Part shown: piece after piece, positions 6,626 to 44,430 of the stretch
Layout of the letters: each line of letters starts with the position of its first letter
Numbering within the stretch: position 1 is the first letter of the stretch
DNA from: a virus
DNA length: 47,004 nucleotides
IMG/VR virus record: IMGVR_UViG_3300009550_000023
Location: 1 to 47,004 of that record
Strand: one strand, 5' to 3'
Made by a program: the position numbers and the translations under genes
The notes under the pieces: generated by a model
What the model saw: only the letters and a program-made list of their open reading frames with translations
What the model was told of the DNA's origin: nothing
The model's database searches: none

Positions 6626-6749
6626 ACTTATCGTTTAAATATTTTAATAGTTCATATATACCCCAACCAATTACAGCCCATAATGCAATATTAAATGCAA
6701 CATAAGCAAAATTGAGTGGGAACCAAAATAGATTTGTTAAAAATTCCAT
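6615..6749 (-). CDS. 44-residue membrane protein
   Basis: Its ATG overlaps the stop of the HAD gene (TAATG), and its end overlaps the next gene by 11 bases. The sequence (MEFLTNLFWFPLNFAYV, then IALWAVIGWGIYELL) is almost wholly hydrophobic with a charged tail, so it is a membrane peptide with one or two helices. Function unknown. Confidence 0.55.
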   Translation of the reverse strand: MEFLTNLFWFPLNFAYVAFNIALWAVIGWGIYELLKYLNDKYAN

Positions 6750-7354
6750 TATATTTTTTTCACCTTTCCTGTTTTGTTAACTAAAAATGCTTCAAAACTG
6801 ACATGTGGAAATTCTCTCTTTAGTTCTAATAAAGCAGTTAAATTTTCCATGTGGTCATCAAATAATCTTATACGTGCATACTTTTCTGTTTGTAAATATT
6901 TTCTAAATATTATTTGTTTAGCTGCCGCACTGGATTTATTTGACATATTACCAGCTCTTTCAACATATACCTTATCCATTGGAATACCATTCTCTTCAAA
7001 TGTTCTAATGAATAAATCTCTATCATCCATATCAGCTCTAGCCGTTACGATTATTACTTTACTTCCTGCTCTTGTTGCATTCTTAATAATAGCTTTTGCT
7101 TTATTAATCATTCTACCAATTGGTATAGCAGTTTTATAAAAAATCTTTGATGATTTAAATTGGCCATAATCATAATACTCACCTTTTTTTAATTTATACT
7201 TATTAAATTCTTTAGGTGTTAAAATTTTTACAACCTTATTTCCACTCTTAACTTGAACCTTAGCATCTGTTGTAAACATAGTATCATCAATATCAAAGAT
7301 AGTTAAACCTTTGTTTGATTCCGCTAAGTATTGTTCGAAGTTAATTGCTTCCAT
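6749..7354 (-). CDS. HAD-superfamily phosphatase with a capsid-targeting-like N-terminus
   Basis: HAD enzymes hydrolyse phosphate monoesters through an Asp nucleophile. Motif I is FDIDDTMF at about residues 19-26, and motif II is VTARAD; the late acidic pair is in LFDDHMEN. Length is 201 aa. The first residues MEAINFEQYLAES match the pattern M-x2-4-F/Y-x-x-Y/F-I/L-x-E of T4 capsid-targeting sequences, with LAE as a possible gp21 protease site. Transcription probably starts at the promoter 7363-7391, whose -10 box ends only 8 bases before the ATG. Substrate unknown; nucleotide or RNA-end phosphatase are possible. Confidence 0.75.
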   Translation of the reverse strand: MEAINFEQYLAESNKGLTIFDIDDTMFTTDAKVQVKSGNKVVKILTPKEFNKYKLKKGEYYDYGQFKSSKIFYKTAIPIGRMINKAKAIIKNATRAGSKVIIVTARADMDDRDLFIRTFEENGIPMDKVYVERAGNMSNKSSAAAKQIIFRKYLQTEKYARIRLFDDHMENLTALLELKREFPHVSFEAFLVNKTGKVKKI

Positions 7355-21084: not shown

Positions 21085-21451
21085 CCTTTAATCCTAATTC
21101 TTTTGCGTATTGTGGTAATCTACAGCTCCAGTATCCAGCTTTTGTTTTATCTTTCTTCATATCACAATTATGACGTGAAGCAAAATTCCTTGCTGCATCT
21201 CTATCACCGATATCTGATTTTAATCCACCCTTAACATCACCAAATTCTATTTTGATAACATTACCTGTATCTGGTTTCTTTACATATACCACATACTTTT
21301 TATCTCCACCACTACGACTTGGTTTATTTAATTCAACTTCTCTACCTTGATATTTAGCTTCAACCATAGGTTGTTCTAAAGGAACCCATGCACCTTCAAA
21401 TAATCCAAATCTTTCGTCTGAAAATTTAGCCACCGAACTCATGACCTGCAA
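21062..21451 (-). CDS. DUF5872-like internal virion protein
   Basis: The 129-residue protein contains LNKPSRSGGDKKYVVYVKKP, VIKIEFGDV, AARNFASRHNCDMKKDKT and AGYWSCRLP, the blocks of a small domain (DUF5872, from memory) found in many T4-like and related phages, usually in multi-domain virion or head-associated proteins. The two conserved Cys residues (HNCD, SCR) are present. Start is uncertain: ATG at 21451 or 21442, or GTG at 21433. Confidence 0.7.
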   Translation of the reverse strand: MQVMSSVAKFSDERFGLFEGAWVPLEQPMVEAKYQGREVELNKPSRSGGDKKYVVYVKKPDTGNVIKIEFGDVKGGLKSDIGDRDAARNFASRHNCDMKKDKTKAGYWSCRLPQYAKELGLKGGGNYFW

Positions 21452-22193
21452 CCCTCTTCATTTGTTTAGTATATTCTTGATAACTTGGTTTAGTTTTATA
21501 TAACTTAATTGAAATCTCATTTCTTTCTTTACCTTTGATTCTCCAATTATAACCTTTTTCTTTATGTTCTGGTTTAGTTGTTTTTACAACTCTTCTCTTA
21601 TATCCAGCTTCCCATGATTCACCTTTGTTAGGTCCATCACCTTCTTCAACTGATTCTTTGAAAGGTACTCTCTTAATTTGCTTAGGTGCTATGTCTTGAC
21701 CTTCATCTTCTTTACTAAAATCTCTTACTTTATCACTAGCCTTTAATACTTTATCCATGTATTCTTTAGCATCATTCATTGCATATTTTTTCAATTCGGC
21801 TGTTGACATGGTACCAGTTGAATCTACCATATATACTTGAAAGGTATCATCTGGGTTAACATTTCTAGCATCCCCTACTTGTTTATGCCCAGCTTGTGCT
21901 AATACATATTTACCATCTGTATAATAAATGTAATCTTCATGATAACCATCAACTACACCATGAACTACAACTGGTTTTCCAACCTGGTGAAACTTCATAG
22001 GATTGCCACCTAATGTTTTACGTACACTTTGTGATTTCATTAGCTTATCACCAATAGCACTTTCATTTACATCCACTGATTCAATTGGTACACAGTTAGG
22101 AACTCTTTTACCATTTTTCATTTTGGTTCCAACTTGTTTATACCCTGTCCAACATGGACCTTTTTCTAAAATATATTCTCTAAAATTTTTCAT
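21426..22193 (-). CDS. Targeting-signal protein with CWxGYKQVG domain
   Basis: The start chosen is MKNFREYILEKG, because it matches the capsid-targeting pattern with ILE as a gp21-type site; the frame opens five codons earlier. Directly behind is PCWTGYKQVGTKMKNGKRVP followed by NCVP, a well-known short domain of phage virion proteins (CW..YKQVG.K.K.GK.VPNCVP). Internal ESVDVNES and ESVEEG motifs recur as in the 690-residue protein. The C-terminus contains a KSYQEYTKQ-like helix. Probably an internal capsid protein; biochemical role unknown. Confidence 0.65.
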   Translation of the reverse strand: MKNFREYILEKGPCWTGYKQVGTKMKNGKRVPNCVPIESVDVNESAIGDKLMKSQSVRKTLGGNPMKFHQVGKPVVVHGVVDGYHEDYIYYTDGKYVLAQAGHKQVGDARNVNPDDTFQVYMVDSTGTMSTAELKKYAMNDAKEYMDKVLKASDKVRDFSKEDEGQDIAPKQIKRVPFKESVEEGDGPNKGESWEAGYKRRVVKTTKPEHKEKGYNWRIKGKERNEISIKLYKTKPSYQEYTKQMKRVAGHEFGG

Positions 22194-22432
22194 TTCTTTA
22201 ATACCCACAAATAACTTTTACCCTTTGTTTGAGCCTTCTTAGTTATACCATATCCAGCCATGGCTGCTAGTGTTTGCATTTTAGGCCAAGACTTTTCAAA
22301 TCTTTTTTTAAGTTTTTCTCTAGATATATCATCTTTTATTTTAGTAAGAATAGTATCTAATATGTTTAAATCACTAGCTACTAGTTTCTCATCAACCTGT
22401 GTAGATTCTCTAAACTCTTTAAATGTTTTCAT
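22190..22432 (-). CDS. Small protein with T4-IPIII-like capsid-targeting sequence
   Basis: The 80-residue protein starts MKTFKEFRESTQVDEK; T4 internal protein III starts MKTYQEFIAE. The rest is basic and helical (ILTKIKDDISREKLKKRFEK), like T4 internal proteins. The first 40 bases are almost identical to those of the next gene upstream (one mismatch). Predicted to be packaged in the prohead and injected with the DNA. Confidence 0.65.
   Translation of the reverse strand: MKTFKEFRESTQVDEKLVASDLNILDTILTKIKDDISREKLKKRFEKSWPKMQTLAAMAGYGITKKAQTKGKSYLWVLKK
22393..22432. repeat. 40-base direct repeat, copy 1, encoding the targeting sequence
   Basis: This stretch encodes MKTFKEFRESTQV and matches 22617-22656 at 39 of 40 bases. 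The two genes diverge completely after it, so only the signal part is shared. Confidence 0.85.
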
Positions 22433-22656
22433 TATACTCTTAGTTTACCTATATTGTTCTTAAAAAACTGTTGTAATTTTTTAAAATCATTCTTTTTCAT
22501 AAGAATATCACCGTCACTAATATTCACCGACAACCTAGGATTCCACTCTAAACGCATCATACCATTTTTGAGTTCTACCACTTTGTAGTCTGTATCAGAA
22601 GCTAGGGTTTTATTTTCAACCTGTGCAGATTCTCTAAACTCTTTAAATGTTTTCAT
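22432..22656 (-). CDS. Small protein with the same targeting sequence as its neighbour
   Basis: The 74-residue protein starts MKTFKEFRESAQVENK, the same leader as the gene at 22190-22432, but the body is different (VELKNGMMRLEWNPRLSV, then GDILMKKNDFKKLQQFF). This is what is expected when a targeting peptide is moved onto new cargo. Body family unknown. Confidence 0.65.
   Translation of the reverse strand: MKTFKEFRESAQVENKTLASDTDYKVVELKNGMMRLEWNPRLSVNISDGDILMKKNDFKKLQQFFKNNIGKLRV
22617..22656. repeat. 40-base direct repeat, copy 2, encoding the targeting sequence
   Basis: Second copy of the repeat at 22393-22432, with one base difference (Thr to Ala codon region unaffected by the rest). Confidence 0.85.
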
Positions 22657-22658
22657 TT

Positions 22659-23105
22659 TTATTTAAATGTTGCTACTTTATGTTTCTTTAAGAAATCTTT
22701 GTATTTTTTACTTGCAGCTTTAAAAAGTTTACCTCTTCTCTCGTATTCTTTTCTTTGAGAACTTCCTTCTTTACCCATAGGTACAAACACGCCATCCCAT
22801 GTTCTATCATAGTCTTTTTTCAAATCTAAGATTTGTTGTTGAATCTTATCGGGAAGTTTTCGTGCTTTTTCTATATCAACCATTCCTTCATCAAGTATAG
22901 AATTAGTCACACTTTCTTTTACATCTTCATACATAGGTGCTAAAGCTTCAACTACTTTACCTATTATAAAAGGGTCTATAGAAGCAATCATATCAGCTTC
23001 TGCTCTTTTTAAATTTTTAATACCCTTGATTTTATTATAGATATTTGTATATCTAACTTCATTCACAACTTGTGTGTATGCTTGTTTCCATGTTTTATAT
23101 GTCAT
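22659..23105 (-). CDS. Basic helical protein with targeting-like start
   Basis: The 148-residue protein starts MTYKTWKQAYTQVVNEV, with aromatic residues at positions 3, 6 and 10 and a possible site VNE. The body is helical and Lys-rich (KIKGIKNLKRAEADMIAS, KEYERRGKLFKAASKKYKDF). An internal ESVTNSILDEG resembles the ESV-x-E motifs of the 690-residue protein. Probably an internal head protein; function unknown. Confidence 0.6.
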   Translation of the reverse strand: MTYKTWKQAYTQVVNEVRYTNIYNKIKGIKNLKRAEADMIASIDPFIIGKVVEALAPMYEDVKESVTNSILDEGMVDIEKARKLPDKIQQQILDLKKDYDRTWDGVFVPMGKEGSSQRKEYERRGKLFKAASKKYKDFLKKHKVATFK

Positions 23106-23113
23106 TTTATCTC

Positions 23114-23386
23114 CTATTTTAGTGGCTTAGCATCTTTCATTGCTCTCATGGCTTCATTTTTAAGTAAGCCATAAGTTAATGTTAACCATCTTATTAAAGC
23201 TGGTTTAGTGCCTGCTATTGTCATTTCATATTTTCTTTTATTCCAATCATGTACAAAGACACCTTCATTTTCCCACTCATCTGCTCCTTGGTCATTTGGA
23301 TTTCCATGTTCCCAATCTATTGTAAGCATAAAAGCTCTAGCTTTATCTAATTTAAACTCTTTTAAATGTTCTTTAAAGGTTAACAT
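23114..23386 (-). CDS. Small protein with targeting-like start
   Basis: The 90-residue protein starts MLTFKEHLKEFKLDK, with LKE as a possible gp21 site. The rest (AFMLTIDWEHGNPNDQGADE, then VHDWNKRKYEMTIAG) is globular and not recognised. It touches the 690-residue gene end to start. Confidence 0.6.
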   Translation of the reverse strand: MLTFKEHLKEFKLDKARAFMLTIDWEHGNPNDQGADEWENEGVFVHDWNKRKYEMTIAGTKPALIRWLTLTYGLLKNEAMRAMKDAKPLK

Positions 23387-25458
23387 TATTCGTATCCTCT
23401 TCCTTTTACGAAATCTTCTAGGTTATCTTCTAACCATTCAAGCCATAAGTCTGGATCGTCATGTGGTATTTCTTCTGGATAATTATCCATAACATATAGT
23501 ATTAAATCTTCTTCGGCTTTATCAGATAATTCGAAACTATTTGATGAAGGACTTATAACTTTTCTCAATTCCCTACCATGCTTACGCATTATATCTCGTC
23601 TTTTCATCGTACGAACTTCTTTAAAAGTTTTCTTACCTTCAAATGTTTTCTTACCTTCAAATCTAGGTGCTTTCATTCTTTTACCTACCATAATACCAGC
23701 TTTAGTCCTTATATGTTTTTCAATAATTTTTGATTCACTAATTTTTCCGTACATATGTTGTGCAGAGCTCCATATTTCTTCTCTTGTCATAGTATCACCA
23801 AAGCCTAACCTTCTTGGGAATTTAACAGCTTTTCTATCACCAACCTTTTGGCCTTCTAAGTATCTACCTACTGCTACAAACATTTCATCTGGTCCTACTT
23901 CTTTAGCTGGGCTTAGTGAATCGATTCCATTTTTCTTTATATCTTTCATAAAGTCGTTCAGCATTTCATTATACTTCATATTTTCTTTTTCATTCTTAGA
24001 AATAAATGCAAAGTAATAATCGCCATCTCTGACAGGATAGCTTAAAGCTATCCAAGCCTTTGGCCTTGCTGAATTACCTGGGTGGTAATCATTTAATTTC
24101 ATCTCTGCTCTTGCTTTATCTAAATCACCATAAAAAGCTTTTTGTTTTTCTATACTACCAAATGATTTAAATTCTTTATCTACATCTTTATCATTAAATC
24201 TTCTAGAATAAGCTTCATAAAGAACTGATTCTTTCATAGCAATTGACATTTGAGATTTAAATTCTTGCATCTTCTTAGCATCACCTACTATTTTTAGATG
24301 ATTCTCATCTCTTGTTATCTCAACACCAACATCTTTTGCTATTTTAGATAGTTTATTAAATGTAGTTGAACTAGTATCAGATACTTTTAACTCAGATGTA
24401 TCAGCTTCAGGTAATTTCTTTTTATTTTTTACTGTAGTATGACCATATTCTTTAATCTTATTTCTAAAATCAGATAATTTCATTTTATATTCTAATTCTT
24501 TTAGTTTAAGATTTACTTTATCAAGTTTTCCTTCGGTGACTGATTCATTTGTTCCATAATATCCTGCATCCTGTATTCTAGTTAATACACCTTCTTTACG
24601 AGATACTGAAACATGATTTCTCATACCAAATTCATCAATTGCTGTTAACATAGCATTTAAACCTTTATCAATATTTAGTTTTCCGCCATAGTTGCTAATT
24701 GAAATTTCATGTGATTGTGCTAATACTTTACCACCAAATGCTTTAGCAGCTTTTTTCATATCTCCAAATAATTCTTTTGCTTCAGCTTTTGTAAGTGGAC
24801 CACTTCTAATCATATTAGTAATATTACCACCTGGTTTTACACTATTAATTAAATTTAACCAATCAGTTCTATTCTTATCTCTAGCTCTTCCATCAGGTAC
24901 TCTAATTGCTATTGAATTACAATCATCTCTTAATTCGAATTCATTATCCTTTATATCTTGATATAAATCTGAAGTTTCAATAGTTGAATGACTAGAAAGT
25001 CCTTTACCAAATTGATTAGAATTTTGTCTTTGTGGTCGATAAGTTAATTTAACTTTTTTACCAGTCATTCCATTGACACCTTCATTAACTGATTCCAATG
25101 CTTTAATTGCAGCCAATGCATCTTTCTTAGCCATCTTGAGTTCTCTATCTTTCATCTTCTCAACAGCTTTCTTAATCATTAAAAGTCTTTTCTTCTTATC
25201 AGCTGCTGATAGTCTTTCATTTACTGATTCATTCGCAAATCTTAAAGCAGCTTTAACAGCTGGATGATCGCCTAAACCTCTTTCTATCTTCTCTATTTTC
25301 TTATAGGCTCCAGTCATATTACCACCCATATCTAGAGCAATAGCTATAGCCATTTGAAGCCTCATCTTTGGAGAAGTTGGTTTTAAAACTTTACCATCCC
25401 TTGTAGTATACTCCTTGAGCCTTTGTAATCTCTTTTGTCTAATTTCTTTAAATTTCAT
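23386..25458 (-). CDS. 690-residue modular internal virion protein candidate
   Basis: This is the largest cassette member. It starts MKFKEIRQKRLQRLKEY. Several short motifs recur along the chain: ESVNERLS, ESVNEGVNG, ESVTEGK and ESVLYEA, about 45-200 residues apart, which look like module borders or protease sites. Near the C-terminus a perfect tandem duplication gives FEGKKT twice, directly followed by FKEVRTMKRRD, which resembles the MKTFKEFRES leader of the small neighbours, as if another gene had been fused on. The N-terminal block RLQMAIAIALDMGGNMTGAYKK is, from memory, common in marine phage virion proteins. No enzymatic motif recognised. Confidence 0.65.
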   Translation of the reverse strand: MKFKEIRQKRLQRLKEYTTRDGKVLKPTSPKMRLQMAIAIALDMGGNMTGAYKKIEKIERGLGDHPAVKAALRFANESVNERLSAADKKKRLLMIKKAVEKMKDRELKMAKKDALAAIKALESVNEGVNGMTGKKVKLTYRPQRQNSNQFGKGLSSHSTIETSDLYQDIKDNEFELRDDCNSIAIRVPDGRARDKNRTDWLNLINSVKPGGNITNMIRSGPLTKAEAKELFGDMKKAAKAFGGKVLAQSHEISISNYGGKLNIDKGLNAMLTAIDEFGMRNHVSVSRKEGVLTRIQDAGYYGTNESVTEGKLDKVNLKLKELEYKMKLSDFRNKIKEYGHTTVKNKKKLPEADTSELKVSDTSSTTFNKLSKIAKDVGVEITRDENHLKIVGDAKKMQEFKSQMSIAMKESVLYEAYSRRFNDKDVDKEFKSFGSIEKQKAFYGDLDKARAEMKLNDYHPGNSARPKAWIALSYPVRDGDYYFAFISKNEKENMKYNEMLNDFMKDIKKNGIDSLSPAKEVGPDEMFVAVGRYLEGQKVGDRKAVKFPRRLGFGDTMTREEIWSSAQHMYGKISESKIIEKHIRTKAGIMVGKRMKAPRFEGKKTFEGKKTFKEVRTMKRRDIMRKHGRELRKVISPSSNSFELSDKAEEDLILYVMDNYPEEIPHDDPDLWLEWLEDNLEDFVKGRGYE
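23627..23662. repeat. 18-base perfect tandem duplication
   Basis: Two identical 18-base units in the 690-residue gene encode the hexapeptide FEGKKT twice. It sits at the junction before a targeting-like FKEVR segment. Confidence 0.85.
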
Positions 25459-25460
25459 TT

Positions 25461-26837
25461 TTACCCTCTTACTTTTGCGGCTAAGTCTTTATCGGCTTTA
25501 CCCCATGTTCCTGATGATTTTGTTACGAAAGAATTAACTCTTGCTAATCCCCATTGTGTTGGATTGGTTCCAGGTCTATGTCCTGTTTTCCATGCCGCAA
25601 CACCTCTATTAAAAACTTGTTTTAGTATACCTAATGGCATACCACTTTTATCCGCTTTCTTCTTTAAGGCTGCGTCGGACCCACCTTCTTTTACCATGAA
25701 ATCTTCAAAAGTTATATGGTCAGCAAATTCGCCGAACATAGCTTTAAATTTCTTAGTATGTTTGGATGGTTTAGTCTTTGCAGTTTTATCACCAGGTGCT
25801 GGCTTATATGCTGCTGGATTATCATCATCCATCTTTGTTTGTTTATTAAATTGTGCTTGTCTTTTATCTTGTGTAGATTTACCTAAACCTTTGTGATAAG
25901 CTTTATTTCTCTTTTGAGGTTTTTTATCTTCAGTTTTAGGCTTTACTACTTGAGAGAATGGTGTATCTTTTAGATATCTATTCAGTGCTTTGCTTGTTCC
26001 GAAGTCTCCTGCTCCATGCTCCTCTACGAGTTCTACGGATTCGAGCCAATATCTTTTTCTTATGTCGTTGCTTTCCACCATTACGTAATTCGAACCGCAT
26101 ACTATGATTCTCCCTTTGTGATTATTTTCTTTAATACGAACTAGGTCGCCGACTTTAAAGAGACTTCCTTCGATATACTCTTCACGAGTTTCTGATACTG
26201 GAGGTAATTCAATATGTTGCCTAAAAGAACGTGATTCATTTAATCCCATTCCTTTTCTTACTGCGTTGAATAGACCGGAAGAATCCTTAAAGCCGGACGG
26301 TAAACCTTTTGCAAAATTTGCAAGGTCATTTTGTTGAGCGAAAGCTCTTAGTTTTGAAGCGGACATTCCAGCTGCACCTTCTGCATCTGGGTCCCTTTCA
26401 CCTGCGGATACTACTGTTATGGATTGAAAGTTATAGAAACCATGTCTACCTTTTTCACCATTGTACTTATTTAGTAAGGCGTCAAATTCAACAACTCTAT
26501 CTGAACCAACAACCATATTAATATTTACAAACCCTTGGTCATATAATTTAACAACTATATCAAATACTGTTCTTACATCCATATCTCCCATGACCGCACG
26601 CGCGTGCCTAGGAAACATTTTTCTTAAATATTTAATTTTATCTTTTGGTGAAAGTGGATTCTTTTTAGAATCTTCTGTTTTTGATGTATATATTCTATAA
26701 GCACCAGAACGTGCTTGTTTTTTTACAGCGTCAAATAGTTTTTCGTGACCAGTTGTTGGAGGATTATACCTCCCAAATGTAAATGTGACTTCTTTAGTTG
26801 ATTCAGTTAAATAGTCACTAAATGATTTAATCGTCAT
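25461..26837 (-). CDS. Targeted nucleotidyltransferase with KOW-like and DUF5824-like domains
   Basis: Order of parts in the 458 residues: (1) targeting-like leader MTIKSFSDYLTES with site LTE; (2) HIGH-type nucleotidyltransferase domain with FTFGRYNPPTTGHEKLFD and the late GMSASKLR motif (ISSTxIR equivalent), as in NMN or cytidylyl transferases; (3) an ESRSFRQHIELP linker that itself resembles a leader; (4) FKVGDLVRIKENNHKGRI, a KOW-like barrel; (5) a C-terminal block MPLGILKQVFNRGVAAWKTG and RVNSFVTKSSGTWGKAD, matching DUF5824 of phage virion proteins, from memory. It is probably carried in the head and acts early in the host. Substrate (NMN, CTP or other) unknown. Confidence 0.75.
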   Translation of the reverse strand: MTIKSFSDYLTESTKEVTFTFGRYNPPTTGHEKLFDAVKKQARSGAYRIYTSKTEDSKKNPLSPKDKIKYLRKMFPRHARAVMGDMDVRTVFDIVVKLYDQGFVNINMVVGSDRVVEFDALLNKYNGEKGRHGFYNFQSITVVSAGERDPDAEGAAGMSASKLRAFAQQNDLANFAKGLPSGFKDSSGLFNAVRKGMGLNESRSFRQHIELPPVSETREEYIEGSLFKVGDLVRIKENNHKGRIIVCGSNYVMVESNDIRKRYWLESVELVEEHGAGDFGTSKALNRYLKDTPFSQVVKPKTEDKKPQKRNKAYHKGLGKSTQDKRQAQFNKQTKMDDDNPAAYKPAPGDKTAKTKPSKHTKKFKAMFGEFADHITFEDFMVKEGGSDAALKKKADKSGMPLGILKQVFNRGVAAWKTGHRPGTNPTQWGLARVNSFVTKSSGTWGKADKDLAAKVRG

Positions 26838-26856
26838 TAGTATCCTCGGTATCCCA

Positions 26857-28098
26857 TTAGCCTGGGTTATCCCAGCCTTTTATAATATTTGGCGAAAAGT
26901 TATTTGTAGAAAATTCTAATCTATCAACTAACTTTACCGCACCACCTTCCGTACGGTCTATAGCTACAAAGCCCTCAGGGCCGGTGACTTTAAACCCGGA
27001 TTTAGTTTTAACAAACGTACCAATTTTTGATAACGTCTTTAGTTTATTTATAATAATTAGTTTTGCATCTGTGACTAAAGTGTGTAAAATAAACACTTGT
27101 GTAAGTATATCTAAATTTTTATTTGAGAAAAATTCTAATAGTTTATCCCTTTCATCTTCTTGTCTGCCTTTACCTGCTGGAGTTTTAAGTTTATCTATTT
27201 TCTTTTTATATCTTTCATTTACAAATTTAATTAAACCCCTTGCATGTTTAGCAGGGTCTCCAATTCTTTCACCTTTACGAACTACAGTATTGTTGTATAT
27301 GTTTACTACTAAATTAAGTTCTTTATTATTTTCTAATTCTTTTAATACAGGAGCTTCTACTTTTCTAAATACTACTCCAGCTTGTGATAATTTGGATGTC
27401 ACCTCAGCAGTTTCGGCTGCACTCATTACTGCTTTTCCTGATATATCTGGATAGGTTGCATCTACCATCCAAACATTTTTATTTTTTCTTAATCCTGTTG
27501 CTATTGATTTACCAAAGGATGCTTTCATATTCTCAAACTTTGTTCCAGTATATATTGTATGCCATACTATTCCTATCTTAGCTTTTGCTATTGTTTTTGC
27601 TAATGGCGTACCAAATGGAATAGCATAAACGATAGTATTAGGATGGAAAGTAATATGTCTAACTCCATTTATTTTCTCCGCTTTTAAATCGCTTGCCTCA
27701 AACATAAAGTCACCTTGTATAACACCTCTTATACCAACATCCTTTAAGTTATCAAAAGCTAATTTTAATTTTTTATTTAAATCACCTGATGTATCATCAT
27801 CTATATCTGAATGATTTTTATATACCTTAGGATTTTTTGCAAATATACCTTTTTTAGCTACAAAAAATTGACCATCACTTGGGTCAATACCTGCAAAAAC
27901 AGCGGGGGCTCCGTCCCATTTGACAGAAATGTCCACAGGTGAACTTGCATTTCCGCTCAACATATCCCTCAATGACCTTAGCGTTAGGATAGCCTGGCGA
28001 GCCCCCTTAACTCCACCGTCCAAGATTAAATCCTCAATATGTGTCATATGAGTATTCTTGGCTTCGGTTATATAGTTATGATTTTTAAAACTTATCAT
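26857..28098 (-). CDS. Ligase-like protein (DUF6267 type) with targeting sequence
   Basis: The 413-residue protein starts MISFKNHNYITEA, with ITE as gp21-type site. The motif SVKWDGAPAVFAG is a KxDG-type nucleotidyl-lysine motif of the DNA/RNA ligase superfamily, followed by GVIQGDFMFEASD (motif III/IIIa-like) and later WHTIYTG. Similar proteins in T4-like phages are annotated DUF6267, from memory. The most likely activity is ligase or other covalent nucleotidyl transfer, but the final basic motif is not clear. The leader suggests that it enters the cell with the DNA. Confidence 0.7.
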   Translation of the reverse strand: MISFKNHNYITEAKNTHMTHIEDLILDGGVKGARQAILTLRSLRDMLSGNASSPVDISVKWDGAPAVFAGIDPSDGQFFVAKKGIFAKNPKVYKNHSDIDDDTSGDLNKKLKLAFDNLKDVGIRGVIQGDFMFEASDLKAEKINGVRHITFHPNTIVYAIPFGTPLAKTIAKAKIGIVWHTIYTGTKFENMKASFGKSIATGLRKNKNVWMVDATYPDISGKAVMSAAETAEVTSKLSQAGVVFRKVEAPVLKELENNKELNLVVNIYNNTVVRKGERIGDPAKHARGLIKFVNERYKKKIDKLKTPAGKGRQEDERDKLLEFFSNKNLDILTQVFILHTLVTDAKLIIINKLKTLSKIGTFVKTKSGFKVTGPEGFVAIDRTEGGAVKLVDRLEFSTNNFSPNIIKGWDNPG

Positions 28099-28750
28099 AG
28101 TTCATAAAGTCCATAAGTTTATGTGCTAATTCAATACCTGCATCGTAATCTGATGGGTAATGTAAACCAGCTATTACTCTTCCGTATCCACAAATTTTAG
28201 CACCTCTAATTAATTCATTCTTATGCTCAGGATATTTTTTGCTATAATGTAATGCAACAACCATAGGCTGCATAGCATGTCCTGATGGATAAGCAGGTGT
28301 TTTTGCTGTTCCGGTTTTGAATCTATTTAATGTCTTATTATATAAATCTGCTACTTGATAAGGTCTTGGTCTATTAAAGTTATTTTTAAAATGACGAATA
28401 ATTGGCGAACATTGTTCTTCAATATATTCTATTACATCCTCATCATAATCTAAACTATTCTTATTTAAATGTTCTTTTATATAATATGACGCATCCTTAT
28501 CGCAATTTTCATAATCTTTTTTCTGTTGGTCTGAAGCTCCTTCAACTGCTGCAATCACTGCATCAATTTCTCTATCTTCTCTTGGAGGTGATGGTAATAT
28601 AATTCTTTGCCAGCCATCTTTCCATATTTCCATATCATCATAATCAGGTTCTTTTAAATCATCTTGGTCTCTAAATATTAAATGTTTTAAAGCACTGTCT
28701 GGTCTATCATCTAGTCTTGCTTCTCTTATAAATCCAGTAAAGTTTTTCAT
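28085..28750 (-). CDS. PAP2-family acid phosphatase with targeting sequence
   Basis: The three PAP2 motifs are complete: K-x6-RP in KNNFNRPRP, PSGH in TPAYPSGHAMQ, and R-x5-H-x3-D in GRVIAGLHYPSDYDAG. The enzyme uses a phospho-histidine intermediate to remove phosphate from lipids or small molecules. The 221-residue protein starts MKNFTGFIREARLDD, fitting the targeting pattern with IRE as site. There are no TM helices, so it is a soluble class A-type phosphatase. Injection with the DNA is inferred; the target is unknown. Confidence 0.85.
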   Translation of the reverse strand: MKNFTGFIREARLDDRPDSALKHLIFRDQDDLKEPDYDDMEIWKDGWQRIILPSPPREDREIDAVIAAVEGASDQQKKDYENCDKDASYYIKEHLNKNSLDYDEDVIEYIEEQCSPIIRHFKNNFNRPRPYQVADLYNKTLNRFKTGTAKTPAYPSGHAMQPMVVALHYSKKYPEHKNELIRGAKICGYGRVIAGLHYPSDYDAGIELAHKLMDFMNYDKF

Positions 28751-29880
28751 GAACGGTAAAACTCTTTATCGATATCAAATAAATCGCCCCAGCCATTTCT
28801 TTTCATATCATTAATATACCATTTACCATCTTCTCCTTTTAAAAAGCATGATGAGTTTTTAATATCTGATGAACCTCTTATTGATAATCCAGCTTTGATT
28901 TTCTTTGACATTTCACCAGCAGTTTTAGTACCAGCAAGTATTTGTTGTATCATATCTGGTTTCTTAGGTACATCACCACCATAGAATACGTTAGCTGCAC
29001 CTTCACCATCATTAAACTTAACACCACCTGATATTACTTCTCTCATTTGAGCAGCATTTAATGCAGGTGCAAAGTTCCATTTCTTAGCAATGAATGGACA
29101 TAATGAATGTGTATTAGTTTTAGTACCACCAATCTTTCCTGTATCTCTTAATTCTTTTAATGCTTCATTTAATAATTTAGAGGCATAAGGTTTATTGTAG
29201 ATTTGTAGAAATCTTTCAGGCAACATCCAATTTTCGAAGTAAGTAGCATTTTCAGATTTTAAACTATACTTCAATACATCTCCAAGGGTTGGTATTTTTT
29301 TATCTAATACAACAGTGACATCTGTTTTTGGATTACCCGGACCTCTCCAATTTGGTGCTCTTAATTCTACAATCCGATATTCTTTTCCTTTATAATCAAA
29401 TTGCCAATTATCACCTGAGCCTTTTATCCATGCTTCAGTAAATTGACCTTCATGGCCATGGCCAGCTTTAAAGTTTGTAAATACGTTTGGATTAATTTTA
29501 TCGTCTAGGTCAACCTGCATAGGTTCAACATTTTTACCAGATGGTTTGAGTATTTTATTTAATTTTATTAAGAAATCTTGTCCTTTATATCTACGGTATT
29601 TTGAATCTGATAAATTAACTCGAATTGCCTTAGCACCTCTTCCAACTATTTTTATATCTTTTTCTTCCCTATCTATAATCTCTAGTTTAGTTCCCTTTTT
29701 CAAGGTTTCATCCATAGGTGTGCCATCCATCTGATATAACTCAGCATCTTTTTCTAATTCAAAGATTTTATTTTTTGGTGATAGCGTTACGTACTGTTTA
29801 AAAGCGCCTAGACTTCCGGAATATTTGGTTGTTCTACCTAGTAGACTTGCTTCGTAAATATATGATTTGAATGATATCAT
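28747..29880 (-). CDS. Unknown 377-residue protein with targeting sequence
   Basis: It starts MISFKSYIYEASLLG (site IYE, cleavage before Ala), nearly the same leader as the ligase-like protein (MISFKNHNYITEA). The body has GHGHEGQFTEAWIKGSGDNW and VELRAPNWRGPGNP, a possible His/Glu-rich active site, but I cannot assign a family. It is the first gene behind the late promoter at 29919-29926, so the whole cassette appears to be late-expressed. Confidence 0.65.
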   Translation of the reverse strand: MISFKSYIYEASLLGRTTKYSGSLGAFKQYVTLSPKNKIFELEKDAELYQMDGTPMDETLKKGTKLEIIDREEKDIKIVGRGAKAIRVNLSDSKYRRYKGQDFLIKLNKILKPSGKNVEPMQVDLDDKINPNVFTNFKAGHGHEGQFTEAWIKGSGDNWQFDYKGKEYRIVELRAPNWRGPGNPKTDVTVVLDKKIPTLGDVLKYSLKSENATYFENWMLPERFLQIYNKPYASKLLNEALKELRDTGKIGGTKTNTHSLCPFIAKKWNFAPALNAAQMREVISGGVKFNDGEGAANVFYGGDVPKKPDMIQQILAGTKTAGEMSKKIKAGLSIRGSSDIKNSSCFLKGEDGKWYINDMKRNGWGDLFDIDKEFYRS

Positions 29881-29918: not shown

Positions 29919-29926
29919 TATTTATA
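29919..29926 (-). promoter_or_regulatory. T4-type late promoter ahead of the internal-protein cassette
   Basis: TATAAATA on the minus strand, 38 bases before the ATG at 29880. Internal head proteins need late expression, so the position fits. Confidence 0.6.
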
Positions 29927-35009: not shown

Positions 35010-35038
35010 ATTATATCATAAAATCAGTCAATTGTAAA
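35010..35038 (-). promoter_or_regulatory. Extended -10 sigma70-like promoter inside the end of the methyltransferase gene
   Basis: Minus strand: -35 TTTACA (35033-35038), 17-base spacer ending TGA, -10 TATAAT (35010-35015). It encodes the last residues (LTDFMI) of the upstream gene and drives bS21-uvsX. Confidence 0.87.
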
Positions 35039-36207
35039 CTGTTTTTTTCATATTTGTACTCTTTTTTCTTGTTATCTATTAATAGGAAAGGTGTGTCAAT
35101 CAAATCCACTCTGTTGTCAAAATAATCTAATAGGTTTTGCACCATATCTTCTGCTGTTCTTACAGGCACGTTTTGACATATATGATTAATACTACTATTT
35201 ATTAAATTAAAATCTTCAGGTAGATGCATTATCCTCATTGATTCTCTAACTGTTAAATATCTATCTTCGTATGGATGACAAGTTTGAACTGGTAAATGAC
35301 CTACAAAAGCTCCAATATAATTCTTAGCCCATGTAGTTGTTCTTCTCATTACATTACCACCAGCTTTTATTTTAGTATTCATTCTATCAATAATTCCATA
35401 GTGTCTTGGATGTCCTTGTTCTTTTAACCATGGTAAAAGTTTATCGTATGAATCAAACTCCTCTATATAATCAAAACAATTATTCGAATGTTCTAACGTA
35501 TCGTAAAATTCTCTATGAGTTATACCACCATGTAGCTCTTCTAATATGTACCTGTAAAAAGGTAAATCAGATGGTGTATGTTGATTTGGTATATAATTCA
35601 TTGGATCGTCATCTCTACGAGGCCCAGAGGTGATAACTGATTCAATTCTTTCGTTAGGATAACGGTTTACATAAGGTAAAAGTGGTGCCTTATCGCCTTT
35701 AAAAAAGAAATAAAAGGTTCTATCTCTGATTTGAGAATACCCTTGTACTAAGGATTTAGTCTTTAATAGTACAAAGGTATACCCATACTTTTCCCCTATC
35801 TTACGTAGCTTCTCTACTACAGGCTTACCGGTTTTTTGTGCTAACCTCGGAGCGTTCTCTCCCCAAAATACTTTTGGCTCTATTTTATCTAATACGAAAT
35901 GTGCAGTTTCATACATCCAATTATTTACTTCTCTATCTGCTGATGAGTGTGGTGATAATGTTGAAAGACCAGCACAAGGACATACAGTATTTACCATATC
36001 TACTTTCTTTGGTTTATGATTTTTCTTTTCATCCAAATGTACATAATCACCTTGCCAACCTTTACCTCTTATATAGTTTATAAAATGAGAATCATTAGGT
36101 TCAAAATCTGAATATGATAAAACTTCTTCTGGCATTTGACCATCGAGCTTATTCATTATTGCTATACTTTCACCACCTACAAGTGGTACGATACTACTGT
36201 ATTTCAT
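35011..36207 (-). CDS. DNA cytosine-C5 methyltransferase family protein
   Basis: The 398-residue protein has C5-methyltransferase motifs: PLVGGESIAIM (motif I-like), VCPCAGLSTLSPHSSAD (motif IV with the catalytic Cys after Pro-Cys context), WGENAPRL (motif VI, ENA), QIRDRTF (motif VIII), LTVRESMRIMHLPEDF (motif IX/X border) and NVPVRTAEDM (motif X). The start is the ATG at 36205-36207 inside the end of the fusion gene. Its product would modify host or phage cytosine. If the phage DNA carries hydroxymethylcytosine it may instead act in a modified step; that is open. The last codons form a promoter. Confidence 0.85.
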   Translation of the reverse strand: MKYSSIVPLVGGESIAIMNKLDGQMPEEVLSYSDFEPNDSHFINYIRGKGWQGDYVHLDEKKNHKPKKVDMVNTVCPCAGLSTLSPHSSADREVNNWMYETAHFVLDKIEPKVFWGENAPRLAQKTGKPVVEKLRKIGEKYGYTFVLLKTKSLVQGYSQIRDRTFYFFFKGDKAPLLPYVNRYPNERIESVITSGPRRDDDPMNYIPNQHTPSDLPFYRYILEELHGGITHREFYDTLEHSNNCFDYIEEFDSYDKLLPWLKEQGHPRHYGIIDRMNTKIKAGGNVMRRTTTWAKNYIGAFVGHLPVQTCHPYEDRYLTVRESMRIMHLPEDFNLINSSINHICQNVPVRTAEDMVQNLLDYFDNRVDLIDTPFLLIDNKKKEYKYEKNSLQLTDFMI

Positions 36208-37687
36208 CAATCACCTTTGTTATCATTCTTCCTTGTCTTTCTGCATCATCATAGTGTAGAGGTATACAGGTTGCAAGTAATAGTAAACCACCCATAAGTA
36301 TTTCATTCTTAGGCAATTCATATTCATCTAATTTTCTTTCAAATAAATCTTTAACATATTCATTTTGTGGAACATCAGCAACAATAGCATTATATCCATA
36401 ATAACAATCATGAGCTAACTTAGCCCAATCATAAATATTATCACCCATTTTTCCATGCCAAGTTCCATACTCTCCTCTTGGGTCAAGGAGTTTAAATTGG
36501 TCTGTTTGTTGGTTATATAAAATATTTGCTAAATGTAAATCACCATGCATTCCATTTATTGGTGAAGTATATCTATATATGTGTTCTGCCATTTGATGTA
36601 ATTCAGCTATCTTCCAAGCTTCCACAACATTGTAAAATTCATGACTTAATCTTTCTGTAGTTTTACCAACCCACATTGCTTTTGCATTCTCACTAAAACT
36701 ATCAATTAAACTTTCATCTTCTATAGGATTATTAAAATAATTAATTTTAATTTTAAATATTCTATCCATGATATAATCCCAATGTGTCTCAGGCATATTT
36801 TCATATAACATTAAATCACTAAGTAATGTACCACTTTCATATGACATTATTAATTGAGTTGGATGGTCTAATATTCTTGGTACAAACATTGATTGCTCAT
36901 CGCTTAAACACTTATACCAATATGCTTCATTCTTTAAAGTTTTTCTAGAATGTTTATCATGATAATCTGGTAATTTTGTAATTGTTCCAAGCTCAGGATT
37001 AAACTTCAAATTATTAAATGCTCTTGCCTTAGTATTAAGTAGTGATGCACAGGTTTTGTAGTATGTTGGCAGATCACCTATGTCATACCATTCTTTAGTA
37101 ATATATTGGCTAAAATTTCCATAGAGTTCTAGTGCACCTGATATATCGTAGGCCCTACTTTCTGTGAAAGCTTGCTTAGCTCTTAAACCTTCCTTAAATG
37201 AATATAGACCAACTAAAGCATTTGCATTTGGAATTGGTTTATCTGGTTTATTATAATAATTATTACCATCCCACATACACCAAGCTGATTGATTCTTAAC
37301 TTCTTTAGTCAATAAAAAGTTTTCTCCAAGTGGCATATTCTTTTCTAATATAATAGCATCACCTAACCAAACCACAACTGGTTTCAAAGGATTTTTTAAT
37401 GCATTCATACCAATAGATATAGCATCCCTTGGACCATCAAAAGATGGTTGATTAGCAAACCTTACCTTGGGATGTCTTACAGCACAGTATTCTCTGATAT
37501 CAGAATATTTTCCATCCACAACAACTATTTCGTCAACGCTGCCATTGACTGCCTCTATTATATAATCTAGGCAAGGTTTACCATTTACACGTACCATAAC
37601 CTTCGACGTGCCAGAAGATAGAGGTCTTAGTCTTGTTGCTGCACCAGCAGCAGGTATAACTAAATTGAATCCATTTTGTTTGTCCAT
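36194..37687 (-). CDS. Nucleotidyltransferase-kinase fusion protein
   Basis: The N-terminal domain (residues about 5-230) is a sugar/choline-phosphate nucleotidyltransferase: VIPAAGAATRLRPLSSGTSK (signature GxGxRLxPxT..PK type), VNGKPCLDYI and VVWLGDAII (the metal Asp). The C-terminal domain (about 250-497) is an aminoglycoside/choline-kinase-like fold with catalytic NGMHGDLHLANILYN (HGDLHxxN) and LLDPRGEYG (DPRGE in place of DFE). Together they could phosphorylate a small alcohol or sugar and activate it as an NDP derivative, as LicA and LicC do for choline. It sits between a HAD phosphatase and the methyltransferase, with overlaps. Substrate is unknown. Confidence 0.85.
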   Translation of the reverse strand: MDKQNGFNLVIPAAGAATRLRPLSSGTSKVMVRVNGKPCLDYIIEAVNGSVDEIVVVDGKYSDIREYCAVRHPKVRFANQPSFDGPRDAISIGMNALKNPLKPVVVWLGDAIILEKNMPLGENFLLTKEVKNQSAWCMWDGNNYYNKPDKPIPNANALVGLYSFKEGLRAKQAFTESRAYDISGALELYGNFSQYITKEWYDIGDLPTYYKTCASLLNTKARAFNNLKFNPELGTITKLPDYHDKHSRKTLKNEAYWYKCLSDEQSMFVPRILDHPTQLIMSYESGTLLSDLMLYENMPETHWDYIMDRIFKIKINYFNNPIEDESLIDSFSENAKAMWVGKTTERLSHEFYNVVEAWKIAELHQMAEHIYRYTSPINGMHGDLHLANILYNQQTDQFKLLDPRGEYGTWHGKMGDNIYDWAKLAHDCYYGYNAIVADVPQNEYVKDLFERKLDEYELPKNEILMGGLLLLATCIPLHYDDAERQGRMITKVIDEIQ

Positions 37688-38037
37688 TTAATAAATTCCT
37701 CCAAGTTCATTGCTTTATCATCTACGTAATATGTAGACGAATAGGGTTTACCCCATTGTAATTCATCGTAAGGTACATCATGTTCGTCCAACCATTCAGT
37801 TGTGATGTCACCTACATCATCTATTATCTTTTGAATATCACCATCAAATGTTAGCATTCTTCTGGCTGTAAGCAATATTATATAATAGCCTTGATTGTGT
37901 AATGTTCTCATTCCATGTATTACCTTTTTATTGGGTAATGCATTTCCATATTTGTGTTTTGCATCTTTATAATTATGATTGGTATGACAAATAGTATCAT
38001 CAATATCAATCACTATGCTAGGTTTAGGTTTATCCAA
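37660..38037 (-). CDS. HAD-type small-molecule phosphatase
   Basis: The 125-residue protein has HAD motif I IVIDIDDTICHT, motif II LLTARRM and the late acidic pair in YVDDKAMN. It resembles short capsule-biosynthesis or polynucleotide-kinase-type phosphatases. It is compact, with a small or no cap, so it can accept bulky substrates. It overlaps the fusion gene by 28 bases and the glucosyltransferase-like gene by 8, and so belongs to the same pathway. Confidence 0.8.
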   Translation of the reverse strand: MDKPKPSIVIDIDDTICHTNHNYKDAKHKYGNALPNKKVIHGMRTLHNQGYYIILLTARRMLTFDGDIQKIIDDVGDITTEWLDEHDVPYDELQWGKPYSSTYYVDDKAMNLEEFIKWTNKMDSI

Positions 38038-39385
38038 AAAATTCCTCCAAACTGTTTGTATTTAAATCTTGTATTTTTGTATGTACAATTCTTTTCTTCT
38101 TTTCAAAATAACTTAATTGTTGTTCAATTACTTCTTTAGCACCAAATGCTGGAATATTGTTATTTAAAATATTGTTAAAAGTATCTATAGCGTTCGTACC
38201 AAAGCATTTTTCAATCAATTGAGTCACTGACATTTTATCTGTTTGCTTTCCTACGGACTCAATATGTTTTAACATAGGTGGTATTACATTAGATGCATCA
38301 GCTTCCTGTCTGAGAAACTGAATACCATTATCCAAATAATCATTATACATTGTTTCATTATTTGATAATTCATGTATTTTATCTTTTGTCTCATTTAAAT
38401 CTTCTCTATTGGACCATATAGCAATTGGATTAGATATAAACGTTGAACCATCTTCAGCTATGTTGTTCATTCCATAATCATAATCAAATACTGGAACTGT
38501 ACCTACAGCAATTATTTCCATTTGCGCATATTCAAACCTATCGCCATAGTTATGTCTTTCCTTTGGAAGATTATATCCACTATAACCAAACAATGAATTT
38601 GAGATTAAGTTCATACCATCTTCATATTCATAAGGACCAAAGCTTTCGCATATATCGCTATCATAATTATAACCATCAAACTTATCAGTCCATTTTGTTA
38701 TATCGATAATATCAAACTTAGCACCTATAGACCTTTCAATACCATGAATAGAGTAATGGAAATCTTTATCTAAGTTATACATTTCAACCATTCTTTTAGG
38801 GTCTTTCATTGTTGTCCAACGACTTGCGTATATACAACTTTTTCTTTTATCTTTAAAGGGTACCCAATACTTTTCATAATCAGAAACAGTAAAAGGTAAT
38901 TTCATACGAGCAATCCTTTCACCTAGTTTTTTATCAGTTAAAATGTTTGATATATCTTGAGCATAAGTTGTTGTAGTAGAAAAGTTAAATACAATATCAC
39001 ATGCATTTGCTATAGGAATGTGAATTGGTATTCTATCAAAATTCATTCTCTTAATCTCATGCATCATACCAACAAGGATTGGTTTCTCTATTTTAAGAAC
39101 TAAATCTTCAAAGAAACTTTTTACTGTAGATTGGTTGTGCAAAGGACTAGGATAAGAGTTAAGCATAACAATATCATAATTCTCATTTAATTTTTTTCCT
39201 ATGTCAGGTATTTCATCAGCTTTGAAAGATATAGAATTTTTTATATGACCACCTGAACGAGTGAATCCTCTTTCTTGTAAATCATATATGTCTACATCAT
39301 TAGGCATATATCTTTGGAATTCATATCCAAATTTTTCTACACCACAACCATCAAGGCCTTTTCCAAATACTATTGCAATTTTCAT
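38030..39385 (-). CDS. agt: DNA alpha-glucosyltransferase-like enzyme (T4 AGT type) with clamp-binding-like tail
   Basis: T4 AGT transfers glucose from UDP-glucose to hydroxymethylcytosine in DNA. The N-terminus GKGLDGCGVEKFGYEF matches, as I recall it, T4 AGT (ARGLEGCGVTKFSLEQ), and RGFTRSGGH matches KSFTRTSSH. The donor-site region YAQMEIIAVGTVPVFDY matches the AGT block LELGACGTIPVF. Length is 451 aa (T4 AGT about 400). The protein ends NTNSLEEFFG; the phage polymerase here ends NLEDFFG, a clamp-binding peptide, and T4 AGT is known to interact with clamp gp45. The -10 box lies 8 bases before the ATG. Activity is inferred. Confidence 0.75.
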   Translation of the reverse strand: MKIAIVFGKGLDGCGVEKFGYEFQRYMPNDVDIYDLQERGFTRSGGHIKNSISFKADEIPDIGKKLNENYDIVMLNSYPSPLHNQSTVKSFFEDLVLKIEKPILVGMMHEIKRMNFDRIPIHIPIANACDIVFNFSTTTTYAQDISNILTDKKLGERIARMKLPFTVSDYEKYWVPFKDKRKSCIYASRWTTMKDPKRMVEMYNLDKDFHYSIHGIERSIGAKFDIIDITKWTDKFDGYNYDSDICESFGPYEYEDGMNLISNSLFGYSGYNLPKERHNYGDRFEYAQMEIIAVGTVPVFDYDYGMNNIAEDGSTFISNPIAIWSNREDLNETKDKIHELSNNETMYNDYLDNGIQFLRQEADASNVIPPMLKHIESVGKQTDKMSVTQLIEKCFGTNAIDTFNNILNNNIPAFGAKEVIEQQLSYFEKKKRIVHTKIQDLNTNSLEEFFG

Positions 39386-44116: not shown

Positions 44117-44430
44117 TAGTTATTTAATTTATTTACAGTATCAATCTCAGTTTGTGGATTGTTCCATTGCCTGTTTAATCTACTTGGATGTGGTATCTTA
44201 CAATGTTCGACACCTAATCTCTTTAGATATTCAGAGGCTACATTTCCTAAAGCCACTATGTGAGAGTATTTATACGATTGTTCTACAGTAAATATAACTT
44301 CATCTTCTAAGTTATAGATATTAGTCCAATCATATTCTTCCTTTATCCAACCATTAACTCTATTCCAAGTAGTTGATTTGGATTTATCTACTAAACCAGG
44401 TTTCTGTCCTACAACTAATATATTAGCCAA
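44089..44430 (-). CDS. Uracil-DNA-glycosylase-fold protein
   Basis: The 113-residue protein shows UDG-superfamily features: ILVVGQKPGLVD at the start (GxxPG water-activating loop) and IVALGNVASEYLKRLG, followed by KIPHPSRLNRQW, with the HPS motif that contacts DNA. It is shorter than normal UDGs (about 200 aa), so it may be a minimal or inactive member. It overlaps the DNA polymerase gene by 8 bases. Possible roles are uracil repair, or binding and protecting modified bases. Confidence 0.65.
   Translation of the reverse strand: MANILVVGQKPGLVDKSKSTTWNRVNGWIKEEYDWTNIYNLEDEVIFTVEQSYKYSHIVALGNVASEYLKRLGVEHCKIPHPSRLNRQWNNPQTEIDTVNKLNNYLHLRRNVL

Follow-up and report, generated by a model that had tools for sequence, protein, structure and literature searches.

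The 47-kb virus record IMGVR_UViG_3300009550_000023 of IMG/VR (47,004 nucleotides, hereafter the window) raises the question of whether a phage delivers a set of enzymes into its host together with its DNA. The original prediction held that the interval 25461–28750 belongs to a cassette of genes for injected proteins and encodes a HIGH-type nucleotidyltransferase (NTase), a KxDG ligase-like protein (DUF6267), and a PAP2 phosphatase. The interval consists of exactly three complete negative-strand open reading frames (ORFs) of note, and the ORFs, the family scores, and the intact motifs described below agree with the assignment of three clear or likely enzymes. The window is of marine origin and, judged by its genes, from a T4-like phage. 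The recognized T4-like genes encode the DNA polymerase gp43 (44423–46942), a DnaB/gp41-like helicase, UvsX, NrdA, and NrdB, and the interval is located, with its surroundings, in a run of negative-strand genes between the helicase gene and nrdA. We propose, with a probability of about two in three, that the enzymes are produced in precursor form, with 10 to 12 residues acting as a T4-type capsid-targeting sequence (the tag), are packaged in the head by means of this tag, and may enter the host with the DNA.

The strict tag pattern, ^M.{0,6}[FYW]..[FYH][LIV].E, was applied to candidate starts, and 7 of the 723 starts in the window fitted it. Five belong to genes of a run located at 21426–29880, one to a gene for a HAD phosphatase located elsewhere in the window, and one is internal to the gp43 gene. 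Thus, the cassette on which the original prediction relied does exist. PAP2 starts with MKNFTGFIREA, its restriction endonuclease-like (REase-like) neighbor with MISFKSYIYEA, and the NTase with MTIKSFSDYLTES. The start of DUF6267, MISFKNHNYITEA, is a variant of the tag that is two residues longer and is missed by the strict pattern. In the T4 record, internal proteins (IP) II and III start with MKTYQEFIAEA and IPI starts with MKTFKEF. The T4 protein gp23 contains FGSFLTEA, which has the same pattern as the tag, and is cut near this position during maturation. In the T4 tag, residues 4 and 7 are described as responsible for targeting and residues 8 and 10 for processing by gp21, targeting being possible without processing (PMC9026906). 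In PAP2 and the REase-like protein, the tag residues that match these positions are F4, F7 or Y7, I8, and E10. The window proteins display the features of T4-type proteins bearing a capsid-targeting sequence, namely an N-terminal tag of about 10–20 residues with the aromatic positions and an [LI]xE site. The tag region was disordered in the structural models, with predicted local distance difference test (pLDDT) values below 50 for residues 1–16 of DUF6267 and a mean of 49 for residues 1–10 of the NTase.

Homologues were analyzed for gain, loss, and boundary of the tag; since the homologous loci (designated L followed by a number) include near-identical contigs, the counts of tags and motifs do not represent independent events. 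Counted by regular expression, the tag was present in 116 of the 154 NTase matches, in 26 of the 33 PAP2 matches, and in all 14 REase-like matches. For DUF6267 (171 matches), a first count of this type gave 74 tagged, 91 untagged, and 6 truncated sequences, using the strict pattern that misses the window protein itself. Reading class by class gave 88 full tags (90 after hand correction), 21 FxxF half tags, 42 sequences with no tag or with at most 8 residues, 15 without anchor, and 3 unclassed. The untagged DUF6267 proteins of cyanophages P-TIM40, S-PRM1, and P-HM2 start with M(A/S)KNTHLEHLED. DUF6267 (T4-GC71) is also untagged in S-SM1 and tagged, for example, in Methylophilales phage Melnitz. 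In the alignment, the window sequence is MISFKNHNYITE/AKNTHMTHIED, and the predicted cut, marked by the slash, lies where the untagged orthologues begin. In the PAP2 homologues, the residues located directly after the tag vary while the tag pattern persists. Among the HAD homologues, 17 of the 25 that were read had the full tag and most of the others the FxxF half. As a separate observation, half tags of DUF6267 such as MFSFKGFITKDKNTH (loci L130 to L177) retain the aromatic targeting positions, the xxE cleavage position being lost or shifted.

Cyanophage S-CREM2 (219 genes) was chosen for comparing the tag with protein content because its virion proteome has been published, with 52 proteins detected by mass spectrometry. 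In five stretches covering the genome, 6 of 3802 start codons fitted the strict pattern. Only three of the 219 annotated starts did so, those of the SAM hydrolase gp6, the APH-like kinase gp14, and the cytidylyltransferase gp154. All three proteins are among the 52 detected (hypergeometric p = 0.013), and they are exactly the three virion entries listed as ‘regulatory’ (Table 3 of PMC10665884). With a relaxed pattern, four of five proteins were detected (gp13 was, gp175 was not; p = 0.012). In gp12, a detected protein annotated as Cas9, a stretch resembling the tag occurs about 17 residues from the start. The genes for gp12 to gp15 (L092:7704–13331) encode virion-detected proteins (the Cas9-annotated nuclease, a kinase, and small proteins) that all have a tag or a start resembling one, and this run has the appearance of a second tagged cassette.

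Homologues of the NTase have been reported in the virions of S-SM1 (PMC3037559), S-SCSM1 (PMC9602691), and S-CREM2 (PMC10665884), and the label of the S-SCSM1 protein in its database record likewise marks virion presence. All three are tagged (MKKFSAFLNEA, MKSFLQFLKEA, and MKNFSSFLTEA, respectively). In contrast, according to PMC3037559, the homologue of S-PM2 was not among the proteins detected in its virion, and in one S-PM2 record the NTase follows, as a fusion, an untagged DUF6267 whose first residues are MATQNKHLEHLED. Three tagged homologues found in virions against an untagged one that was not found form a small sample, but this distribution is suggestive.

The catalytic motifs of the NTase were then considered. 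The HIGH-superfamily motifs, of the [TH]xGH and SxSxxR types, are present as GRYNPPTTGH and MSASKLR. Residues G30, H31, S159, and R164 were invariant in 66 sequences, and both motifs were kept in 144 of the 145 matches that span them (154 matches in all). The C-terminal DUF5824 domain scored 63.5 bits with PF19141 (cut-off 25). The score with PF01467 (CTP_transf_like) was 18.4 bits, under the cut-off of 21, which was passed by two relatives, those at L157 (24.3) and in S-CREM2 (22.3), and by no other relative scored. The protein also matched a cytidyltransferase of the PHROG collection (1e-103). One PHROG (455) extends over DUF6267 as well as the NTase, which points to fusion of these domains. 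The model of residues 14–201 has the superfamily fold, matching CoaD, NadM, and NadD over 145 to 164 residues with Z scores of 13.9 to 12.2. The best Foldseek match was NadD (4.1e-5). A single-sequence search of the Protein Data Bank (PDB) gave no relevant match, and a profile search listed NadM, NadR, and CoaD among 10 rows at non-significant E values of 0.25 to 1.5. Since the best fold matches are adenylyltransferases and the CTP label came only from automatic names, the cytidine triphosphate (CTP)-type transferase of the original prediction is not favored, although the absence of CTP-transferases among the 50 fold rows listed is not in itself a test. The NTase is thus probably adenylyltransferase-like, as judged from the model. 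The matches to CoaD (PPAT), NadM, and NadD tie; nicotinamide mononucleotide (NMN) or its acid form (NaMN) would be the likeliest single acceptor.

DUF6267, which is present in 416 phage records, scored 353.5 bits with PF19782, above the cut-off, and contains the motifs KWDGAP, QGD, PEGFV, and KLVDR. Motifs I (KxDG, with the catalytic lysine) and IV (EGxV) were invariant in 62 sequences. Motifs I, III, and IV were kept in all 167 matches that span them (171 in all), and motif V in 165 of the 167. In covalent nucleotidyltransferases, motif V reads KxK. In DUF6267 it reads KLV, the first lysine being invariant and the second replaced, and for this reason the protein is described here as ligase-like and is not assigned to the RNA ligases. 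The model had a pLDDT of 86.2 and a predicted template modeling score of 0.83. In the VIA fold comparison, the top 17 rows were RNA or tRNA ligases, with Z scores of 8.2 to 7.0 that are near noise; an unrelated Hsp70 row came next. Comparison with viral models returned the family itself first, including the S-PM2 fusion, and then a phage RNA ligase (7.5e-3). A profile search against PDB sequences gave no relevant match. The resemblance of the DUF6267 model to RNA ligases is weak; the KxDG and EGxV motifs are intact.

PAP2 scored 37.2 bits with PF01569 (cut-off 27.2), and the window protein contains the three motifs of the family (K-x6-RP, PSGH, and R-x5-H-x3-D), as expected from the claim that all its catalytic residues are present. 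The three motifs were found in 31 of 33 matches (29 distinct), the exceptions reading PAGH and PSNH. Among PDB sequences, soluble acid phosphatases of class A come closest (1.4e-9), which makes small phosphoesters likelier substrates than lipids and disfavors the lipid control that had been envisaged. The REase-like protein matched the PADLOC profile REase_II (4.5e-6, 24.1 bits). Residues E144, PKTD187, and SLK208 were invariant in the 10 sequences aligned, which cover 10 of the 14 homologous loci, and no relevant match was found in the PDB. S-SCSM1_90, a ‘virion protein’ encoded upstream from the S-SCSM1 NTase gene, was considered as a relative of this protein and dropped (profile comparison, 0.8% probability). 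The HAD protein matched phrog_415 (2.3e-10), its Pfam matches being below cut-off. In relatives, several of these domains are fused, although several domain scores fall below the Pfam cut-offs. The largest fusion (L135:4208–7600) is a 1131-residue protein combining PAP2, Pol beta NTase, HIGH NTase, and DUF5824 domains. Others combine an AAA_33 kinase (L130), a Pol beta NTase (L141 and L157), or DUF6267 (L176) with the NTase. Such fusions suggest that the enzymes may act jointly or be delivered jointly.

Proteins consisting of degenerate capsid parts, the outcome that would have spoken against the original prediction, are unlikely since the catalytic motifs are conserved near-completely. This conservation indicates that the proteins are probably enzymes, whether tagged or not. 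In the proposed mechanism, the tagged precursors would be synthesized late, as we assume, and the tag would bind them to the prohead core, as in T4. The prohead protease would cut after [LIV]-x-E, and the mature enzymes would be retained in the head with the DNA, as published for the NTase homologues only. At infection, they would pass into the host like Alt and the internal proteins of T4. In the host, the NTase would transfer an adenylyl group to an acceptor, DUF6267 would form an enzyme-AMP adduct and have the ends of nucleic acids or a different acceptor as its target, and PAP2 would hydrolyze soluble phosphomonoesters such as nucleotides. Our analysis makes head packaging of this enzyme set likely and, if packaging is granted, injection equally so. 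The head packaging put forward by the original prediction is well supported by the tags and by the virion NTase homologues; its CTP-type transferase and its lipid control are not favored.

Several observations weigh against this proposal. The p-value obtained with S-CREM2 is modest if taken alone, and the tag-bearing loci are redundant. The tag is not necessary for virion detection because gp155, gp156, and gp160 (from the same region), gp165, gp174, and gp176 of S-CREM2 were detected without it. Of the three enzymes, published virion detection covers the NTase only, in homologues from other phages, and the authors themselves caution that the NTase, as an abundant protein, may be present in virions by carry-over (PMC9602691, PMC10665884). 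The 42 untagged and 21 half-tagged DUF6267 sequences indicate that this family does not need packaging. The Foldseek comparison of DUF6267 with the PDB was weak (best E value of 0.19). The late-promoter-like sequence TATAAATA was not enriched in the window (12 sites for 11.76 expected), and ATAAATA was below expectation. One of the 12 sites, which are all on the coding strand, is located 39 nucleotides before the first tagged gene (29919–29926, negative strand); it was not used as evidence.

Could the proteins be ordinary intracellular enzymes of nucleotide or RNA metabolism, acting after their expression, with an N-terminal motif that is due to chance or forms a non-targeting helix? The location of the genes among replication genes, between gp41 and nrdA, and the occurrence in cyanophages of DUF6267 without a tag, alone or fused to the NTase, are in line with this explanation. 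We nevertheless consider it improbable, since the tag recurs on unrelated adjacent genes, is found at only 3 of 219 annotated starts in S-CREM2, all encoding virion enzymes, and keeps its pattern in PAP2 while the residues that follow vary. Packaging for a passive role, as head proteins for DNA condensation or scaffolding, would fit the small size of the neighboring 74-, 80-, and 90-residue proteins, which recall IPI to IPIII of T4, small proteins that are not known as enzymes. This role is very hard to reconcile with catalytic motifs kept in 144 of 145 NTase, 167 of 167 DUF6267 (motifs I, III, and IV), and 31 of 33 PAP2 sequences, and with the occurrence of the same enzyme families untagged elsewhere.

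Granting that the enzymes are packaged and injected, their function in the host may be sought in two directions. An injected NMN or NaMN adenylyltransferase could restore nicotinamide adenine dinucleotide (NAD) as the phage enters, for instance to counter defenses that deplete NAD, as suggested by the authors of PMC9602691. The best fold matches of the NTase include NadD and NadM, its profile search lists NadM and NadR (although not significantly), and the kinase-NTase fusion of L130 recalls NadR, in which a P-loop kinase is joined to a HIGH NTase. However, CoaD scores equally high (Z scores of 13.9 and 13.0 for CoaD and the NAD-type rows, a tie) and the NAD models of NCBIfam gave only 13.4 and 12.5 bits, far below cut-off. 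An NAD-specific role of the NTase is a tentative proposal, less likely than not. Alternatively, DUF6267 could seal or adenylylate RNA or DNA ends, with the HAD, PAP2, and nuclease-like proteins sharing its substrates. The putative RNA-ligase-type fold, the tagged polynucleotide kinase-phosphatase-like HAD protein, and the fusion of NTase relatives with kinase or Pol beta domains point in this direction. Against it, the second lysine of motif V is absent, the HAD gene is remote from the tagged run, and HIGH NTases are not known to participate in RNA repair. End repair in this form appears rather unlikely.

Table 1. Features of the tagged gene run and of the distant HAD gene; a slash marks the predicted cut.
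Feature	Position	Strand	Length	Observations
HIGH-superfamily nucleotidyltransferase (adenylyltransferase-like) with KOW/SH3-like beta segment (label read by eye from the predicted model) and C-terminal DUF5824	25461–26837	-	458 aa	tag MTIKSFSDYLTE/S
DUF6267, putative RNA-ligase-like covalent-nucleotidyltransferase fold with helical insertion of about 130 aa	26857–28098	-	413 aa	tag MISFKNHNYITE/A
Soluble PAP2, class A acid phosphatase-like enzyme	28085–28750	-	221 aa	tag MKNFTGFIRE/A; ORF overlaps the DUF6267 ORF by 14 nt
Tagged restriction endonuclease-like (PD-(D/E)xK-like) protein	28747–29880	-		first gene of the tagged run; REase_II profile, invariant residues
Protein in which ESV-x-E-(G/R) linkers recur, possibly a polyprotein of internal proteins	23386–25458	-	690 aa	linker count; no convincing family match in Pfam and PHROG searches
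Small protein	23114–23386	-	90 aa	tag MLTFKEHLKE
Small protein	22432–22656	-	74 aa	starts MKTFKEF, first seven residues as in T4 IPI
Small protein	22190–22432	-	80 aa	starts MKTFKEF, first seven residues as in T4 IPI
Protein	21426–22193	-	255 aa	tag MKNFREYILE (inner ATG)
Tagged HAD phosphatase, polynucleotide kinase-phosphatase-like	6749–7354	-		tag MEAINFEQYLAES; separated from the run by about 14 kb

The remaining genes of the run call for a few observations (Table 1). ESV-x-E linkers were found four times in 10 cassette proteins (2806 residues) and not at all in the 26 other window proteins chosen (7826 residues). The motif [LIV]xE[GAS] exceeded shuffled sequences in cassette and non-cassette proteins alike and does not single out the cassette. 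In the 690-residue protein, small blocks are located between linkers that resemble prohead-protease sites, and this protein might be a polyprotein. Elsewhere on the negative strand, alpha-glucosyltransferase-like and DNA methyltransferase-like genes (38030–39385 and 35011–36210, respectively) could mean that the DNA is modified.

Parts of this picture have precedents. The tags of the T4 internal proteins are classical knowledge, the action of a virion-borne NMN adenylyltransferase (NMNAT)-like enzyme on a new cyanophage host was proposed in 2022 and 2023 (PMC9602691, PMC10665884), and packaged effectors of the NAD-ADPr enzyme type have been described in myoviruses (PMC9503650). In the open literature searched, no paper names DUF6267 or DUF5824 and none links capsid targeting with an adenylyltransferase in a phage; capsid targeting combined with cyanophage led to one T4 review. 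Within this literature, the NTase tag, its agreement with virion proteomics, and the clean boundary of the tag appear to be new, as does the extension of the predicted tag to DUF6267, PAP2, and the nuclease-like and HAD proteins. We raise, as a speculative and rather doubtful generalization, the idea that T4-like phages of marine heterotrophs carry a head-packaged kit for attack and repair of nucleic acids, comprising the nuclease-like and RNA-ligase-like proteins, phosphatases, and an adenylyltransferase, and in relatives also a kinase and a Pol beta NTase, the interchangeable tag being gained or lost as enzymes shift between cytoplasmic and injected roles. If the proposal of packaging and injection is correct, the tag predicts from the genome alone which proteins of T4-like phages enter the cell before gene expression. 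DUF6267, DUF5824, and phage PAP2, widespread families of unassigned role, become testable as injected effectors; the recurrence of a ‘cytidylyltransferase’ in cyanophage virions is explained; and tagged and untagged orthologues offer a natural experiment on the benefit of packaging.

Comparison with known systems places the window set between several of them. It shares the N-terminal tag (MKTYQEFIAEA or MKTFKEF) with IPI to IPIII and Alt of T4. Alt is an ADP-ribosyltransferase, whereas the window encodes other enzyme types in a run of adjacent tagged genes, with predicted cleavage and injection. The NTase family and the tag are common to the virion cytidylyltransferase or NMNAT (T4-GC190) of S-SM1, S-SCSM1, and S-CREM2, the tag not being named in the relevant passages of the papers on these phages. 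The window NTase differs by its DUF5824 domain and by its neighbors, since the genes for DUF6267, PAP2, and a nuclease-like protein beside it are tagged as well. Polyvalent proteins are packaged multi-enzyme effectors that include Pol beta NTases (Iyer et al. 2017, PMC5512222, whose main text has no occurrence of ‘PAP2’) and may be compared with the fusions of up to four domains and 1131 residues found in relatives of the window. The window set differs from them by its predicted T4-type cleavable tag and by the combination of HIGH NTase, PAP2, and DUF6267. With NadR, NadM, NadD, and CoaD, the NTase shares the fold and both HIGH-superfamily motifs, but identity is 10–16% in the fold alignments listed and the tag, the beta segment, and DUF5824 are additional. 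DUF6267 shares KxDG and EGxV with the RNA ligases Naegleria Rnl, T. brucei REL1, and T4 Rnl2, its top VIA matches (Z scores of 8.2 to 7.2), and departs from them by helices inserted between motif IIIa and motif IV, by KLV in place of KxK, and by weak Foldseek E values. Finally, PAP2 shares its motifs with the class A nonspecific acid phosphatases PhoN and PhoC, its best PDB sequence matches. The latter enzymes are secreted, whereas the N-terminus of the window protein, read by eye, is a putative capsid tag and not a secretion signal.

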